From: Candidatus Firestonebacteria bacterium RIFOXYD2_FULL_39_29
GTDB taxonomy: Bacteria > Oederibacteriota > D2-FULL-39-29
Direction: 5' to 3'
DNA length: 63,172 bases
NCBI GenBank assembly: GCA_001778375.1
Contig: MFGV01000090.1
Span: forward strand, 1 to 63,172
Part shown: piece after piece, positions 32,790-55,676 of the stretch
How the letters are laid out: every line of letters begins with the position of its first letter
How positions within the stretch are numbered: position 1 is the stretch's first letter
Made by a program: the position numbers and the translations under genes
Notes under the pieces: generated by a model
What the model saw: the letters and a program-made list of their open reading frames with translations, nothing else
What the model was told of the DNA's origin: nothing
The model's database searches: none

Positions 32790-32817
32790 TTGACAATTCC
32801 AAAATCCGAGCTATACT
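32790..32817 (+). promoter_or_regulatory. Sigma-70 promoter driving the riboswitch leader
   Basis: Perfect TTGACA (32790-32795), 16-base spacer, TATACT (32812-32817). The predicted start near 32824 precedes the aptamer by about 15-20 bases. Confidence 0.8.
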
Positions 32818-32839
32818 CTATAGTAGTGATGTTATTAAT

Positions 32840-32972
32840 ATAAAGGTAACCCGTGAAAGGCGGGCTCTGCAAAGCTATAGGGCTTCTTAGTTGAAGATGG
32901 AAGCAGCCAGCTACCGTACCGAAAGGTCGTAAGTGTGACTGCTAAACCATCTTTAGAAGATGGTTTTGTTGT
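32840..32972 (+). promoter_or_regulatory. GEMM-I cyclic dinucleotide riboswitch with expression platform
   Basis: The aptamer shows the GEMM-I core in order: AAGGTAACC, a GAAA-capped P2 (CCCGT..GCGGG), GCAAAGCTATAGGGCTTC, an irregular P3, and the closing GCAGCCAGCTACCG (about 32905-32916). GEMM-I RNAs bind c-di-GMP (subset: 3',3'-cGAMP). An intrinsic terminator follows at 32944-32966. AAGATGG occurs both inside the aptamer (32894-32900) and as the terminator's 3' arm (32957-32963), and both can pair with CCATCTT (32947-32953), so an alternative antiterminator is available. Ligand specificity cannot be read safely. Confidence 0.86.
32944..32972 (+). terminator. Intrinsic terminator of the riboswitch
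   Basis: AAACCATCTT (32944-32953) and AAGATGGTTT (32957-32966) form a 10-bp stem with a TAG loop, followed by a T-rich tail (TGTTGTTT). It lies about 25 bases before the response-regulator start. Confidence 0.85.
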
Positions 32973-32994
32973 TTGTAGAAACCTCAGGGGGACT

Positions 32995-33366
32995 ATGGAT
33001 AAAAAGCTGAAAGTTCTTGTGGTTGATGATGAACCTGAAATTAGAGAGTTGTTTAAGATGCTCTTAGAGGGAGAAGGGCATGAGGTCCAAGTTGCCGAAA
33101 ATGGTAAAGTAGGTGTTGAATTGTTCAAGATTTCTGTATTTGACGTGGTACTTTTAGATGTTCATATGCCTGTAATGACAGGCCCTGAGGCTTTAAAGGA
33201 AATAAAAAAACAAAAACCATGCCAGAAGGTTATTATTTTCAGCAGTAGTTCAGATCCATATTTGAAGTTTGAAAAAGAAGCAGAAAAACTCGGGGCTTTT
33301 AGTTGTCTATATAAGCCTGTAAGCGTTGAAGAAATATTAGGTATAATAGAAAAAGCAGTATTGTAA
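32995..33366 (+). CDS. Single-domain response regulator under riboswitch control
   Basis: This 123-residue stand-alone receiver domain has the acidic pair VVDDE (about 10-12), the phosphoacceptor Asp55 in VVLLDVHMP, the Ser/Thr switch in VIIFSSS, and the Lys in LYKPVS. There is no output domain, so it works by protein contact like CheY. I chose ATG 32995 because AGGGGGA lies immediately upstream; the open frame extends to 32935 through riboswitch sequence, which is not expected to be coding. It lies tail-to-tail with a pilT gene, with no strong terminator between. Confidence 0.9.
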   Translation: MDKKLKVLVVDDEPEIRELFKMLLEGEGHEVQVAENGKVGVELFKISVFDVVLLDVHMPVMTGPEALKEIKKQKPCQKVIIFSSSSDPYLKFEKEAEKLGAFSCLYKPVSVEEILGIIEKAVL

Positions 33367-33403: not shown

Positions 33404-34582
33404 CTAATTAATTTTAGCGGATTTCTTTCCTGTTGTTTTTCTGTTTTTAATTATTTTTAGTCTATATAAAAGATTTTTTAAAATATATTTTAAGTTTGGC
33501 TTCTTTTTTAAAGAAGGTTCCAGATCTGCCAGAATTGAGTTAGTAAATTCTGTCGGAGAGTTTGAGTAAGCTCTTGCTATATCAAAATTGATAAAACCCT
33601 TCTTGAGTAATGCCTTTAAGGATTGATTTAAACTCTGCATTCCCTGTTCTTTTCCCGTGGATATTGCAGTGGGAATCTGACGGACTTCATCATTTACAAT
33701 TAAGTTTCTGATAGCAGAAGTGGATATCAGTATTTCTACTGCAGGAATCCTCCCTTTTTTATAACCTCTTGGTACTAACTGTTGAGAGATTACGGAATTA
33801 AGTGCTCCTGCAAGTTGTGTCCTTATTTGCGTCTGCTGCATCGGCGGAAAGACATCAATTATTCTGTGTATAGTTTGGGCTGCATCGATTGTATGTAATG
33901 TGCTTAGAACAAGATGTCCTGTTTCTGCAGCGGTTATCGCAGTGGAGATTGTTTCCAGGTCTCTCAGCTCTCCAATCATTATAACATCAGGAGTCTGCCT
34001 CACTACGGAAGTAAGCGCGGCGGAAAAAGATTCAGTATCTACATGTATTTCTCTTTGCTCAACTATACTTTGCTTGTTTTCATGGTGGAATTCTATAGGA
34101 TCTTCTATAGTTATAATATGGCATTTTCTTCTGCTATTAATCAAATCTATCATTGCGGCGAGTGTAGTGCTTTTCCCGCTCCCTGTCGGACCTGTAATCA
34201 AAATAAGACCGCTGTGAGTAAAAGCAAGTTTTTCAATAATTGGAGGCAGGTTTAGTTTGGAAAACTTTGGCAGAAATATAGAAATAGGTCGTATGGAAGC
34301 TGCCAGTGTTCCTTTTTGAAGGTACGCGTTTACCCTGAATCTGCTTAAGCCGGTTATTGAATAGGAAAAATCCAGTTCTTTTCTTCTTAATAAAATAGAT
34401 TTTTGTTTTTCTGTAAGCAGGGATTCTATAATATTTCTGCATTCTTCAGGCGAGAGTTTCTTCTTGTTCATTTGTACTACTTCGCCGTCAACCCTCAAGC
34501 TGATTGGCGTATTTGCAGAGAGGATGATATCAGATGCTCTTTCGTTTAGCGCAATCTCACATAGTTCTCTGAAATTCAACAC
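33404..34582 (-). CDS. pilT: Type IV pilus retraction ATPase PilT
   Basis: This 392-residue hexameric ATPase drives pilus disassembly and twitching. All canonical motifs are present: Walker A GPTGSGKSTT (about 134-143), Asp box TIEDPIEFHHENKQS, Walker B DVIMIGELRD, His box HLVLSTLHTIDAAQT, and ISQQLVPRGYKKGRIPAVEIL. Compared with the liv-operon paralogue, its P-loop is standard. The C-terminus has a basic extension (about 30 residues, LKIIKNRKTTGKKSAK). Start GTG 34582 has GAGG five bases upstream. Confidence 0.93.
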   Translation of the reverse strand: MLNFRELCEIALNERASDIILSANTPISLRVDGEVVQMNKKKLSPEECRNIIESLLTEKQKSILLRRKELDFSYSITGLSRFRVNAYLQKGTLAASIRPISIFLPKFSKLNLPPIIEKLAFTHSGLILITGPTGSGKSTTLAAMIDLINSRRKCHIITIEDPIEFHHENKQSIVEQREIHVDTESFSAALTSVVRQTPDVIMIGELRDLETISTAITAAETGHLVLSTLHTIDAAQTIHRIIDVFPPMQQTQIRTQLAGALNSVISQQLVPRGYKKGRIPAVEILISTSAIRNLIVNDEVRQIPTAISTGKEQGMQSLNQSLKALLKKGFINFDIARAYSNSPTEFTNSILADLEPSLKKKPNLKYILKNLLYRLKIIKNRKTTGKKSAKIN

Positions 34583-40564: not shown

Positions 40565-41053
40565 ATGAGTGAAGGCGAACTTCAAATAGAAAGGAGAAAA
40601 GTCCCCAGATGGAAATGTTCCATTAATGTTAAGTTTAAAATTATTAAAAATGAAAAGTTTGGCATTTTCAGGGATGCTTTCACAAAGATAAAAGAAGGAG
40701 AAAGTAAAGACATCAGTGCCGGCGGGACTCAAATTGTTTCAAAAGTGCCTGTAAAGAAGGGAGATAAGCTTACTATGAGTATTTATATGCCTGCAACGGA
40801 TAATACCGTAAGAGCACTTGGTGAGGTTGTAAGAGTTAAAGAAATGGAAGAAGAAGGGGTAAAAAAGTACTTTATTGGAATAAAATATGTTGATATAATA
40901 ACAGAAAGCGATGATTTACTTGAAGAAATAATGAATCAAAAATTAAAAGCGGGAGCCAAGACCAATATATCAAAAGAAGAAGCTCTCAGGCTTGCAAGGT
41001 ATGAGTATTTTATCCGTTTGATAAATGAAGAATCGTTTAATTTTAAAGAATAG
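40565..41053 (+). CDS. PilZ-domain protein (c-di-GMP receptor)
   Basis: This 162-residue protein has both PilZ c-di-GMP-binding motifs: RxxxR in RRKVPRW (about residue 11-16) and DxSxxG in KDISAGGTQI (about 42-51). The beta-barrel continues with LTMSIYMP, ALGEVVRVKE and YFIGIKYVDI. The C-terminal ~45 residues are helical and carry no known domain. With both motifs intact it should bind c-di-GMP. It links to the riboswitch and YajQ in the same window. What it controls is unknown. Confidence 0.9.
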   Translation: MSEGELQIERRKVPRWKCSINVKFKIIKNEKFGIFRDAFTKIKEGESKDISAGGTQIVSKVPVKKGDKLTMSIYMPATDNTVRALGEVVRVKEMEEEGVKKYFIGIKYVDIITESDDLLEEIMNQKLKAGAKTNISKEEALRLARYEYFIRLINEESFNFKE

Positions 41054-50361: not shown

Positions 50362-50535
50362 ACTCGATTTTTAGTCGGTTAAGATTCAGTAATAATAGAT
50401 TTTATCTGTAAAAATTTGTTTTTATCAATCTGTGTAATCAGTCCGGACTTTCGGACTATATTCGTTGACTGCGGCAACATTTGGTAGTAAAATAATTAAT
50501 AATAGTAAAGAAAGAAGGTGAGTATAGGAGTTGAA
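50362..50535. other. Spacer with hairpin before the hybrid kinase
   Basis: Contains AGTCCG (50440-50445) / CGGACT (50452-50457) around a GACTTT loop, without a T-tract, embedded in ATCAATCTGTGTAATCAG, which resembles the dispersed repeat family. The promoter at 50465 follows. Confidence 0.45.
50465..50493 (+). promoter_or_regulatory. Predicted sigma-70 promoter of the hybrid kinase gene
   Basis: TTGACT (50465-50470), 17-base spacer, TAAAAT (50488-50493). About 40 bases before GTG 50536. Confidence 0.6.
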
Positions 50536-53500
50536 GTGTTTTCAGAGTTTAAGCAATATTTTAAAAAATATCGTGTATCGGGGTTTTTCAGTGTAATAGT
50601 TGTTATTATTGTGATTTTTGGAATATTTTCTTTCCTGAATCAGAAAAGTCAAAATGAAAAGAAATACAGAGAAGAACTTAAAGTTATTGCCGATTTTAAA
50701 GCAAAGCAAATCTCAGATTGGTTTAATGAGAGGATGGCTCAGGCAAATTTTCAGAATAATGGTGGAACGTTTGCTTACAATCTGAGAGATTACGCTAAAA
50801 ACCCGTCCTCGGCGGAGCTGCGTAATAAAGTAAAAGTATGGTTGGATAATTATGTAAAAGTATATCATTATTCCTGTGCTACTGTCTACGATTCCTCAGG
50901 GAAGATTTTGCTTTGTCTTGATAGTAAATGTGAAAAAGTTGAGGCTGAGGAAAAATTGGCCCGCCTTGCTCTAAAGAATAATGAGATTGAGCTAAATGAT
51001 ATTTATAGTAGTTCGTATCAAAACAGTGATTTAAATATTGCAGTTCCTCTTAAGGTAATAGAGGACAAAAATATATTTCAGGTAGGAGTTCTTGTCTTAA
51101 AAATAGACCCAAAGGAGCGGCTTTTTCCGCTTTTAAACACCTGGCCCACTCCCCGCAAAACAGTTGAAACACTGCTTTTTAGAAGAGAAAGTAATAAAGT
51201 TGTTTTGTTAAGTGAAGCAAGAATTGTTAATAATGTTTCGCCTGAGCTGTCTTATAATTTAAATAAAAAATCACTTCCAATAGGAGTTTGGTCTGTAGCT
51301 AAAGATGTTGAAGGATTTTATGAGGGACTTGATTGCAGGGGCATAGAAGTTCTTGTCTATGCCGTGAAAATTCCTGCTACACACTGGTGGATGGTGGCAA
51401 AAATTGATTCTGCGGAATTTAATGCACCTGTTGTTTTAGCGGCGAGAAATACAGTTTTTATTGTGCTCACCATGATAATCATCTGCTTTCTCTTCGTATA
51501 TCTTGTCTACTATAGAGATAGAAGTGTTTTAATGGAAGAGAAAAATATCGTAGAGATGGAAAGAACGATAATTGCCCACGAAAAGGATTTTCTGGCAAAA
51601 TATTCGAATGATACCATAATGATAGTAGATGAATATTTTAATATTCTGGATGTAAATGAAAGTGGTTGCCGCATGTATGGTTATACACGGGAAGAAATTT
51701 TAAGCATGAAAGCGGATAATTTAAGACCGCCTGAAATGAAATCAGATTTTAAAAAAACTGCAAAGATTATGTATTCGGCCGGTAATTACATCGGGGAAAA
51801 TATTCATATTAAAAAAAACGGAGAAAGATTTCCGATAGAGGTCAGTTCAAATGCTTTCGAAAAAGACGGCAAAAAACATCTACATGTAATAATTCGTGAT
51901 ATCTCTGTAAGAAAACAAATCGAAGCAGAAGCATTACTGCAGCAATCAAAATATAAAGAACTTTTTGATAATATTGCCGACTGTGTTGTTGTTTGTACCT
52001 CTCCGGATAATGGTGAAAGTTTCAATATTGTTGATATTAATAAATCGGCTGAAGTTCTGGAGAAAGTAAACAAAAAAGATATCATTGGGAAATCTTTGAA
52101 AGAGATTTTCCCCGGAGTTGTTGATTTTGGACTTTACGAAATACTTGGAAAAGTATGGCAAACAGGAATTCCTGAATATTGTCCGCCAGCTTTTTATAAA
52201 GATGATAAGATTGAGGGTTGGAGGGAGAATTATGTTTATAGGCTCCCGAGAGGCGAAGTAGTTGCAGTCTACAAAGATCTGACGAAAGAAAAAAACAAGC
52301 AGGATAATTTGAATTTTCTCTATAAAAGTTCTTTAGAAACCGGATCTATGATGTTTAATGTTGACTTGTTTTCGTATGCTGCAAAGAAAATATCAGAATT
52401 GGACGAAAATATTATTATTCTTGCGAGTGCTTTTGATGAGAAAACAAATATACTGAAGGTAAAGGCGGTGGAAGGCCTTGGTTTAATGTCAGATACCATT
52501 ACGGGGTTGCTTGGAAAAGATATATTGAATTTTGATTTAATAGTGGAAGGGAATGCGAAAAAGCATTTTCTGGCAGGCAGAATGAATAAAGTACCTGTTG
52601 ATTTTTACGAATTTAATTTAAGAGCTGTGCCGCGTCCTGTCTGTAATGTAATCGAAAAGATGCTGAATTTTGAATCTTTTTATGCTATGGGAATAGTGCA
52701 TGATAAAAAATTGTTCGGATGTGTTTCCCTTGTAATGAGAAGAGGGGCTAATTATGAATTACTGAAAATAGTTGAGTCTTTTGTCTCTCAAATTTCTTCA
52801 ATATTACAAAGAAGACTTCTTGAAGAAGAACGTATGAAAATGCTCGGAGTGATCGAAAAAACTGAAGAAAAGTACTTGCAGATATTTAATTTAAGTCCGC
52901 TGCCGATAATGATCACGCGCCTAGATGATGGCTGTTTCATTGAAGTCAACGATTCAGCTGTAAAGTTAATTGGGGCAAAAAAAGAATATATTGTCGGCAA
53001 AACATCAATTGAGCTGGGTCTATATACAGATCCTGAGGATCGAAAGAAGATAATTGAGCAGTTACAAAAGTGCGGGGTTGCTATTGGTGTTCGGGTCAGA
53101 CAGTACACATTGGGAGGTAAGGAGTTGCTTGTCCTGCAAAATTATAAGGTATTGGATATAGAGGGGGTTAGATGCGTTCTTACTATAACACAAGATATAA
53201 CCGAACATAAGCAGCTTAAAAATAAACTTATACAGGCTCAAAAACTTGAAGCGGTAGGTCAACTTGCCTCAGGTGTCTCGCATGAGTTTAACAATTTACT
53301 TACAATTATCAGTTTAGCCATGGAAGAAGCAAAAAGAAAAAACACACTTGAATTTTATTCGAAAATAACAAATACAGTGATTAAAACAAGTAAACAAGCT
53401 GCGTCTATCGCAAAACGCCTGAATGAATTTGCGAAAAAAAGAGAGATCGCCTATAGAAAACAAACTGTTACTTCTGTGGTGGATTATATTCTTGAGCTTT

Positions 53501-54342
53501 TGAATAATCAAGCGTTGAAAAAGAATATCATCATAGAAAAAGAGTATCTTTTTGAAGAAGAAATATATTTTGATGACACTTTACTCCTGCAGGTTATACT
53601 AAATGTTGTTCAAAACGCAATACATGCTGTTAAAAATGAAGGGAAGATAAAGGTTTCTGTCAGAGAAGATCTCGGGGTAATCTCCATAATTGTGAGTGAC
53701 AATGGTATAGGTATCTCTAAAGAGCATCTGTCAAAGATATTTGACCCGTTTTTTACTACAAAAGGTGCCTTTGGCACAGGAGAAGAGGTCGGGACCGGTC
53801 TTGGACTTTCGGTAAGTTATTCTATTATGCAGAGTCTAGCCGGAGATATTTCGGCAGAGAGTGAAGCGGGCAAAGGCAGTACTTTTACTATCAGGATACA
53901 GGCTTTGAAATCTTATAATCCTGTTGTAATGAAAAAAATGCCTCTTATTCAAGATCCCGGAAAACTAAATGTGCTGATTGCTGAAGAAAAGAAGAGTATT
54001 AGCACTATTGTGTCCGATGTCTTGAAGGAAAAATGTTTAAAAATAATAGTCACAGATAACGGGCAGGATGCTTTTAATGTTTTAGGTTCGGAAACAATTG
54101 ATTTGCTTATTGCCGAGCTTAATGTTCCGGCTCTTAAAATAGAAGAAACACTTGCACTTGCAAGGGAGAAAAATCCGAAAGTATCTGTTATAATATTAAC
54201 TGATGTAAAAAAAGAAAGTTTCTCTCCCTGGAAAGATAAAATAGATAAGGCAGGAGGGGCAGAAGTATTGCATAAACCTTTCAAGGAAGAAGAAGTTAAA
54301 GTACTTCTCGAAAAAATTACAAAGGAGCAGGGAAAAGTATAA
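50536..54342 (+). CDS. Giant multi-PAS hybrid sensor histidine kinase with pseudo-receiver
   Basis: This protein has about 1268 residues. I chose GTG 50536 because TAGGAG (50525-50530) lies five bases upstream; GTG 50518 is also in frame. Order: TM1 (about 17-35), a periplasmic Cache-like sensor (about 36-300), TM2 (about 305-326), PAS1 (about 353-460), PAS2 (about 470-585), a GAF-like region (about 592-755), PAS3 (about 777-893), HisKA with His916 in SGVSHEFNNLL, HATPase (N-box region NVVQNAIHAV, G1 DNGIGIS, G2 GTGLGLSV), and a C-terminal receiver-like domain (about 1145-1265). In that domain the acidic pocket is EE (1150-1151) and the phosphoacceptor position is Glu1194 instead of Asp, while Lys1247 (HKPF) is kept. 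It likely senses a periplasmic cue and phosphorylates the adjacent NtrC-type regulator. Confidence 0.92.
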   Translation: MFSEFKQYFKKYRVSGFFSVIVVIIVIFGIFSFLNQKSQNEKKYREELKVIADFKAKQISDWFNERMAQANFQNNGGTFAYNLRDYAKNPSSAELRNKVKVWLDNYVKVYHYSCATVYDSSGKILLCLDSKCEKVEAEEKLARLALKNNEIELNDIYSSSYQNSDLNIAVPLKVIEDKNIFQVGVLVLKIDPKERLFPLLNTWPTPRKTVETLLFRRESNKVVLLSEARIVNNVSPELSYNLNKKSLPIGVWSVAKDVEGFYEGLDCRGIEVLVYAVKIPATHWWMVAKIDSAEFNAPVVLAARNTVFIVLTMIIICFLFVYLVYYRDRSVLMEEKNIVEMERTIIAHEKDFLAKYSNDTIMIVDEYFNILDVNESGCRMYGYTREEILSMKADNLRPPEMKSDFKKTAKIMYSAGNYIGENIHIKKNGERFPIEVSSNAFEKDGKKHLHVIIRDISVRKQIEAEALLQQSKYKELFDNIADCVVVCTSPDNGESFNIVDINKSAEVLEKVNKKDIIGKSLKEIFPGVVDFGLYEILGKVWQTGIPEYCPPAFYKDDKIEGWRENYVYRLPRGEVVAVYKDLTKEKNKQDNLNFLYKSSLETGSMMFNVDLFSYAAKKISELDENIIILASAFDEKTNILKVKAVEGLGLMSDTITGLLGKDILNFDLIVEGNAKKHFLAGRMNKVPVDFYEFNLRAVPRPVCNVIEKMLNFESFYAMGIVHDKKLFGCVSLVMRRGANYELLKIVESFVSQISSILQRRLLEEERMKMLGVIEKTEEKYLQIFNLSPLPIMITRLDDGCFIEVNDSAVKLIGAKKEYIVGKTSIELGLYTDPEDRKKIIEQLQKCGVAIGVRVRQYTLGGKELLVLQNYKVLDIEGVRCVLTITQDITEHKQLKNKLIQAQKLEAVGQLASGVSHEFNNLLTIISLAMEEAKRKNTLEFYSKITNTVIKTSKQAASIAKRLNEFAKKREIAYRKQTVTSVVDYILELLNNQALKKNIIIEKEYLFEEEIYFDDTLLLQVILNVVQNAIHAVKNEGKIKVSVREDLGVISIIVSDNGIGISKEHLSKIFDPFFTTKGAFGTGEEVGTGLGLSVSYSIMQSLAGDISAESEAGKGSTFTIRIQALKSYNPVVMKKMPLIQDPGKLNVLIAEEKKSISTIVSDVLKEKCLKIIVTDNGQDAFNVLGSETIDLLIAELNVPALKIEETLALAREKNPKVSVIILTDVKKESFSPWKDKIDKAGGAEVLHKPFKEEEVKVLLEKITKEQGKV

Positions 54343-55676
54343 TGACTAAAAAGATTAAAGTATTGATAGTGGATGATCAGGCGGAATTAGCAATGCTTTT
54401 GGAAAGCAACCTTGAATCCTACGGCTTTATTACGGAGAAAGCGGCAAACGGCAAAGAAGCTCTGGAAAAGCTTAAAGTGTTTTCTGCGGATGTAGTTATT
54501 ATGGATTACATGATGCCTGTTATGAACGGGTTGGAGGCGCTTAAAATTATAAAACAGCGGCATGCTCTAATTCAAGTGATAATTCTTACTGCATTCGGCA
54601 GTTTTGAAACTGCAGTTGCAGCCATAAAGGCCGGCGCTTATGATTATGTGAACAAACCTTTTTCGTTTAAAGAGCTTTCTGTTCTTATTGAGAAATCCTA
54701 CGGAGAGCTGGTTAAAAAAGATGAAAACATTGCTTATAATAAAAATTTAAAAAATGCCGGTTATTTTGGCGCAAATATAAAAATGTCTGAAGTTATGCAA
54801 ATTATAGAAAAAGTGGCACCACTAACCTCAACTGTTTTAATCTATGGGGAAACGGGAACAGGTAAGGAACTTGCGGCGAAGGCTGTTTTTGAGAAAAGTT
54901 TACGGAAAGATAAACCTTTTGTGGTTTTAAACTGCGCAGCTTTGCAGGAGTCTTTAATGGAGAGTGAGCTTTTTGGTCACGAGAAAGGATCTTTTACCGG
55001 GGCAATTAAGGATAAACAGGGACTTGTGGAGCTTGCCGATAAGGGTACTTTGTTTTTGGATGAGATCGGGGAACTGGGTTTAAATTTGCAGGCAAAACTC
55101 CTAAGGTTACTGGAGCAGGGGGAGTACCGTCGTGTTGGTTCAACTGTTACTAAAAAGACTGATATAAGAGTTATCGTTGCAACAAATAAAGATCTTTTGA
55201 AAATGACAAAAGATGGGAAATTCAGGGAAGATCTTTTATTTAGATTAAATATAATTAACATAGAACTTCCGCCTTTAAGGGAACGAAAGGATGATCTTCA
55301 GTATCTGCTGTATATTTTCATAGATAAATATAAAAAAGAGTTTAATAAGGAAATTGAAGGTGTAAACAGTGAAGTCTTGAAAATGCTTATGGCCTATGAA
55401 TGGCCCGGAAATATTAGAGAGCTTGAAAATGTAGTGGAAAGTTCGGTCATAATGAGCAAAGGAAAAGTAATTGAGCCGGAAGCCCTACCCAGTAAGTTTG
55501 CAGGCGATATATCCCAAATGAAGACAACAGGAGTAAAAACCCTTGCTGAGATAGAAAAAGATCATATTTTTAAAGTATTACAAGAAAATAATAATAATAA
55601 ACTGAAAACCGCCCAGATACTTGGTATAGACAGGACAACGCTGTACAGTAAACTTAAGCTTTACAAGATAGAATAA
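54342..55676 (+). CDS. NtrC-family sigma-54 activator
   Basis: This 444-residue response regulator overlaps the kinase by one base (TAATG). The receiver has Asp55 in VVIMDYMMP. The AAA+ domain has Walker A GETGTGKE (about 169-176), the sigma-54 contact loop as GSFTGA (canonical GAFTGA, one substitution), Walker B TLFLDEIGEL, and the sensor/arginine region EYRRVGS, LFRLN. A Fis-type HTH (about 400-444: LKTAQILGIDRTTLYSKLKLYKIE) binds enhancers. It activates sigma-54 RNA polymerase by ATP hydrolysis. A sigma-54 promoter lies 455 bases downstream. Confidence 0.95.
   Translation: MTKKIKVLIVDDQAELAMLLESNLESYGFITEKAANGKEALEKLKVFSADVVIMDYMMPVMNGLEALKIIKQRHALIQVIILTAFGSFETAVAAIKAGAYDYVNKPFSFKELSVLIEKSYGELVKKDENIAYNKNLKNAGYFGANIKMSEVMQIIEKVAPLTSTVLIYGETGTGKELAAKAVFEKSLRKDKPFVVLNCAALQESLMESELFGHEKGSFTGAIKDKQGLVELADKGTLFLDEIGELGLNLQAKLLRLLEQGEYRRVGSTVTKKTDIRVIVATNKDLLKMTKDGKFREDLLFRLNIINIELPPLRERKDDLQYLLYIFIDKYKKEFNKEIEGVNSEVLKMLMAYEWPGNIRELENVVESSVIMSKGKVIEPEALPSKFAGDISQMKTTGVKTLAEIEKDHIFKVLQENNNNKLKTAQILGIDRTTLYSKLKLYKIE

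Follow-up and report, generated by a model that had tools for sequence, protein, structure and literature searches.

We consider it probable that the leader preceding a receiver-only response regulator gene in Candidatus Firestonebacteria bacterium RIFOXYD2_FULL_39_29 is a divergent transcriptional OFF riboswitch of the c-di-GMP-I (GEMM-I) type; from its anatomy and surroundings we infer c-di-GMP as the ligand, termination in the ligand-bound state, and a role in the biology of type IV pili. Comparison with the orthologous leader of a sister species, Candidatus Firestonebacteria RIFOXYA2_FULL_40_8, indicates that the element is real and conserved, a divergent c-di-GMP-I-like riboswitch that is known from two species and is probably functional. 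The features of the locus within the window, by which we mean the entire 63,172-nucleotide stretch of DNA analyzed (contig MFGV01000090.1), are compiled in Table 1.

Table 1. Features of the riboswitch locus; positions refer to the window.
Feature	Position	Strand	Basis or remark
Sigma-70-type promoter, TTGACA-16-TATACT	32790..32817	+	11/12 consensus positions matched
GEMM-I/c-di-GMP-I-like aptamer (P1 weak or absent, P2, P3)	32835..32918	+	RF01051, 32.0 bits
P2 with GAAA loop	32845..32871	+	Internal loop 2x4 instead of the usual 3x3; from RF01051 alignment
P3 (AGCU/AGCU, GG/CC, GCUU/AAGC)	32873..32914	+	Core pairs identical in sister species
Predicted antiterminator 5' strand AAGAUGGAAGCAG, within aptamer P3	32894..32906	+	MFE pairing with 32939-32942 and 32947-32953
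Predicted anti-aptamer hairpin (GCAG...UACCGAAAGGU...CUGC), mutually exclusive with P3	32903..32942	+	MFE fold; nearly identical in sister species
Intrinsic terminator AAACCATCTT-TAG-AAGATGGTTT and T-rich tail	32944..32975	+	10-pair stem 32944-32966
Ribosome-binding site AGGGGG	32986..32991	+	3' of terminator; read from sequence
Receiver-only response regulator, 123 aa	32995..33366	+	Response_reg 1.4e-25, residues 7-118
PilT/PilU-family pilus retraction ATPase, convergent	33404..34582	-	TIGR01420 444.8 bits, cut-off 319.1

In the Rfam covariance search suggested as a check in the initial annotation, the GEMM-I aptamer proposed there is supported by a match to RF01051 with an E-value of 1.3e-4 (401 bp searched) or 2.3e-4 (whole 3.0-Mb genome), yet its score lies 3 bits below the gathering score of 35 bits. 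A gathering-level Rfam scan of the window reported only a tRNA and missed the aptamer, while the orthologous leader of the sister species reaches 35.0 bits. Membership of the window element in RF01051 is therefore borderline, the window sequence falling below the cut-off and its ortholog just at it; in its function, the element most probably resembles a c-di-GMP-I riboswitch. Assignment to the c-di-GMP-I-GGC family (RF03167) would call for a gathering score of 59 bits and a G at position 47 (GCGAA in the consensus); with this model the sister leader scores 32.7 bits, and the window aptamer carries A47. The same genome contains four RF01051 matches above the cut-off and three just below it, the window element included, and among 45 genomes of the phylum such matches are confined to the order to which the window belongs. 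From 11 riboswitches of the lineage, RNAalifold recovered only P2, since P3 differs between subgroups.

Both the P2 and the P3 helix are present, with a GNRA-type (GAAA) loop whose closing base pair is irregular, and their pairs are kept in the sister species, where two distal P3 pairs have changed on one side with pairing maintained. The ligand contacts of c-di-GMP-I aptamers have been named as G20, A47, and C92 (PMC4744006). We assigned these positions by hand from the Rfam alignment, so that the Vc2 numbering used here is our own mapping; on this basis, G20 corresponds to 32845, the U22-G45 wobble to 32847/32869, U44 to 32868, A47 to 32871, and C92 to 32914, and all three putative contact bases as well as the bulged G83 are present, the P3 bulge A82-G83 being conserved at 32905-32906. 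Neither a clear P1 nor a clear tetraloop receptor was found in the window aptamer; there are precedents for an absent P1 in Cd1 and for a lower-P2 U-G pair in the pilM riboswitch (PMC9262584).

The unusual part of the aptamer is its P2 loop. Of 77 aptamers that could be parsed at other GEMM-I loci, 68 show a 3x3 and none a 2x4 internal loop in P2, and 72 have a C directly before the lower GC pair (before G45), a position at which the window and the sister species carry a U. This change affects the interhelical C44-G83 pair, which has been described as universally conserved (PMC4744006): in the window, G83 (32906) is retained, whereas position 44 is a U and a C is found at 32867 within the 2x4 loop. 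RNA folding adds an A-U pair (32848-32868) to the lower part of P2, which leaves C32867 as a possible shifted partner. One might go further and regard the element as a GEMM-I variant specific to the genus, with a rebuilt P2 loop and interhelical contact (2x4 loop, extra lower-P2 A-U pair, U44) that alter ligand preference or affinity, and with an expression platform whose antiterminator invades P3; we view this reading as unlikely. The original description of the leader as a GEMM-I-type transcriptional riboswitch in front of a stand-alone regulator is borne out by covariance score, synteny, and alternative pairings in the sister species, but has to be amended for an aptamer that diverges at a structurally critical place.

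The promoter, the intrinsic terminator, and a duplicated heptamer with a shared pairing partner had all been noted from the letters of the sequence, and each was confirmed in its place. AAGATGG occurs in aptamer P3 (32894-32900) and again in the 3' arm of the terminator (32957-32963), and both copies can pair with CCATCTT at 32947-32953. When the terminator was kept fixed, a second AAGATGG arose in 1.2% of dinucleotide-shuffled leaders, and 2.5% contained some 7-mer able to pair with the 5' arm of the terminator. The sister species carries a promoter at the equivalent place (TTGAAT-17-TATACT) and retains an 8-pair terminator stem (AACCATCT/AGATGGTT). As a class, promoter-like sites showed no enrichment over shuffles in the region around the riboswitch. 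Leader-peptide attenuation was rejected, as the sole early reading frame of the leader (MLLI-stop) is absent from the sister species.

The sister leader is 82% identical over 185 nt and is followed, as in the window, by a 123-aa receiver (83% identical) and a convergent pilT gene. Its aptamer core GGTAACCCGTGAAAGGCGGGCTCTGCAAAGCTA is 100% identical, the unchanged stretch running from GGTAACCC to GCAAAGCTA, while the tip of P3 and the flanks have diverged, a pattern that implies selection on the aptamer. The aptamer copy of AAGATGG is conserved at 7/7 positions directly beside the diverged P3 tip, which fits a role as an antiterminator strand better than generic conservation. When 59 relatives were searched at the DNA level and approximately 85,000 species genomes with a degenerate pattern, this leader variant turned up only in the sister species, and a search of seven other genomes of the order gave no receiver ortholog. 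With the variant known from two sequences, there is almost no covariation.

How might such a leader switch? Its minimum free energy (MFE) fold is the antiterminator, in which AAGAUGG/CCAUCUU and GCAG/CUGC pair and close over a conserved hairpin; this fold takes up the 3' half of aptamer P3 (32894-32912). In the sister species, each of the seven AAGAUGG/CCAUCUU pairs is conserved, as are the GCAG/CUGC pairs. In the window, the antiterminator fold has an energy of -45.0 kcal/mol vs. -36.8 kcal/mol for aptamer plus terminator (a gap of 8.2), and the corresponding values in the sister species are -43.8 (MFE) and -39.1 kcal/mol (a gap of 4.7); according to these computed energies, ligand binding could plausibly cover either gap. 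A terminator and an antiterminator that exclude each other, are tied to the aptamer, and lie 5' of the ribosome-binding site of the gene provide the layout of a transcriptional riboswitch with a second pairing option, as had been claimed, and the exclusive folds are conserved in the sister species; the direction of the response had been left open, and the anatomy of the leader predicts OFF. At low c-di-GMP levels, the strand AAGAUGG(A)GCAG in the 3' half of P3 would pair with CUGC...CCAUCUU as antiterminator and the regulator gene would be transcribed. At high c-di-GMP levels, the ligand would retain AAGAUGG(A)GCAG in P3, and CCAUCUU would be free to pair with the downstream AAGAUGG, so that transcription would terminate before the gene. 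An OFF switch is predicted because the ligand-held P3 removes the antiterminator and thereby releases the terminator. In C. difficile, those class I riboswitches that function are as a rule OFF switches acting by termination, but the class as a whole includes riboswitches of either sign (PMC6366702). In the sister species, a fold combining the anti-aptamer hairpin with the terminator (-43.5 kcal/mol) differs from the antiterminator fold by no more than 0.3 kcal/mol; the sequence in which the parts fold as they are transcribed hence matters, and the predicted direction is not set by energy alone.

The contact bases assigned to G20, A47, and C92 would favor c-di-GMP over cGAMP as the ligand. With 11 GGDEF and nine PilZ domains encoded in the genome, c-di-GMP signaling is plausible. 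A Ser at the base-recognition position of GGDEF domains marks cGAMP-making enzymes; in the eight GGDEF domains that could be read at this position, Asp or Asn is present and Ser in none. A stand-alone PilZ-domain protein is encoded 7 kb from the riboswitch (window 40565-41053).

That the same element operates as an ON switch, the ligand-bound aptamer favoring read-through, appears quite unlikely to us: class I riboswitches of both signs are known (PMC6366702), and in the sister species the terminator-bearing ligand-free fold is almost as stable as the antiterminator, but AAGAUGGAAGCAG is itself part of P3, so that formation of the aptamer removes the antiterminator, and no further hairpin was found by which the bound state could block the terminator. 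A variant aptamer with a changed ligand, for instance 3',3'-cGAMP, or with a very different working concentration of c-di-GMP, is unlikely as well. The shifted P2 loop and the loss of the canonical C44 in both species are in its favor, as is the lower-P2 U-G wobble shared with the cGAMP riboswitch of pilM (PMC9262584); against this stand the G at position 20, given that cGAMP recognition has been linked to G20A (PMC7288161), and the lack of a Hypr-type enzyme among the eight readable GGDEF domains. It is very improbable that we are dealing with a decayed GEMM-I aptamer devoid of ligand binding, the leader acting as a constitutive attenuator or responding only to the speed of transcription. The sub-threshold score and the loss of a near-invariant contact would agree with decay, and non-functional GEMM-I copies exist elsewhere (PMC6366702); however, the full identity of GGTAACCCGTGAAAGGCGGGCTCTGCAAAGCTA between the two species, despite the divergence around it, implies selection.

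The regulator that the OFF riboswitch would control consists of a single Response_reg domain without an output domain; its key residues are probably D11/D12, the phospho-acceptor D55, S83, and K107. Its gene ends 37 bp from the convergent pilT gene, and this adjacency, together with the GEMM-I riboswitch that precedes pilB in this genome, hints indirectly, by context, at a possible action of the regulator on type IV pili. The idea of cyclic-dinucleotide feedback, put forward in the initial annotation, found no support, as the regulator contains neither a cyclase nor a phosphodiesterase domain; c-di-GMP is at most an input to its expression. The literature collection searched contained no paper linking Firestonebacteria to riboswitches or to type IV pili. 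Elsewhere in the window (50518-55676), a sigma-54 response regulator of the NtrC type is encoded directly after a large hybrid histidine kinase with multiple PAS domains (1274 aa).

If the element indeed binds c-di-GMP, the interhelical contact of GEMM-I aptamers that has been described as universal can be rebuilt, and the level of a receiver protein whose gene adjoins that of the pilus retraction motor is controlled by c-di-GMP in a phylum without cultured members. Taken together with the pilB riboswitch, c-di-GMP would then act at the RNA level near two ATPase genes of type IV pili, the one for extension and the one for retraction.

Compared with the RF01051 representatives Vc2 and Cd1, the window element shares the P2/P3 layout, the GCAAAGC core, the GAAA loop, the putative contacts G20/A47/C92, and the bulged A82-G83, and resembles Cd1 further in having no evident P1 and in its predicted terminating OFF logic; it differs in the 2x4 P2 loop, U44, the use of the P3 3' strand by the antiterminator, and its sub-cut-off score. 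Within the same order, pilB is the conserved GEMM-I partner (L001, L040-L044, L049), present in every hit-bearing species. These pilB leaders share aptamer family and lineage with the window element; in L040, a terminator-like arm contains TAAGTTATCGG, with which CCGATAACTTA, located just past the aptamer, can pair, and this suggests the same kind of logic. In contrast to the window element, the pilB leaders possess the canonical 5' end AUCCGAAAAGGC and a canonical P2 loop, and their putative antiterminator strand lies 3' of the aptamer and not in P3. The PilB protein of L001 carries a c-di-GMP-binding MshEN domain, so c-di-GMP may act on RNA and protein alike. At four further loci (L002, L004, L005, L006; approximately 1501-1700), near-identical GEMM-I leaders with a P3 insertion of about 100 nt are found in front of outer-membrane genes of PorV/PorQ-like type, with membership in the PorV family confirmed at L005, and give the impression of a mobile or duplicated regulatory cassette; 3' of the GEMM-I leader of L006, a PilZ domain is fused to a GNAT/FeeM/autoinducer-synthase-like domain (L006:1867-2949).

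Control of a receiver-only regulator by GEMM-I had been called less usual; however, such a gene lies directly 3' of the riboswitch at four of the 110 other GEMM-I loci surveyed, all in other genera, a count drawn from best-scoring matches with near relatives included and hence not a frequency estimate. These loci (L148 in G116; L178, L191, and L182 in the congeneric G251 and G381) likewise place riboswitch and terminator directly 5' of a 122-127-aa receiver-only regulator, with the receivers Pfam-confirmed for L148 and L178 and all four riboswitches above a curated cut-off. They differ in their canonical aptamers (62-65 bits, RF03167) and in regulators that are not orthologs of the one studied here, and no pilT was identified adjacent to them. 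RF03167 is their best model and scores above its cut-off despite A47 in place of G, so this family may over-collect. The combination of riboswitch and response regulator is therefore of a known kind, and it is the aptamer that is unusual. The response-regulator genes of cmrRST in Clostridioides difficile, which are linked to surface behavior, are likewise under the control of a c-di-GMP riboswitch (PMC6837544), although that system involves Cdi-2-2 (class II by name), an ON response, DNA-binding regulators with a kinase, and a DNA-inversion switch. The pilM riboswitch of Geobacter (GEMM-Ib) shares with the window element the lower-P2 U-G wobble and, as the gene it controls belongs to type IV pili, a putative pilus link; its ligand is cGAMP, whereas the putative G20 of the window aptamer favors c-di-GMP.
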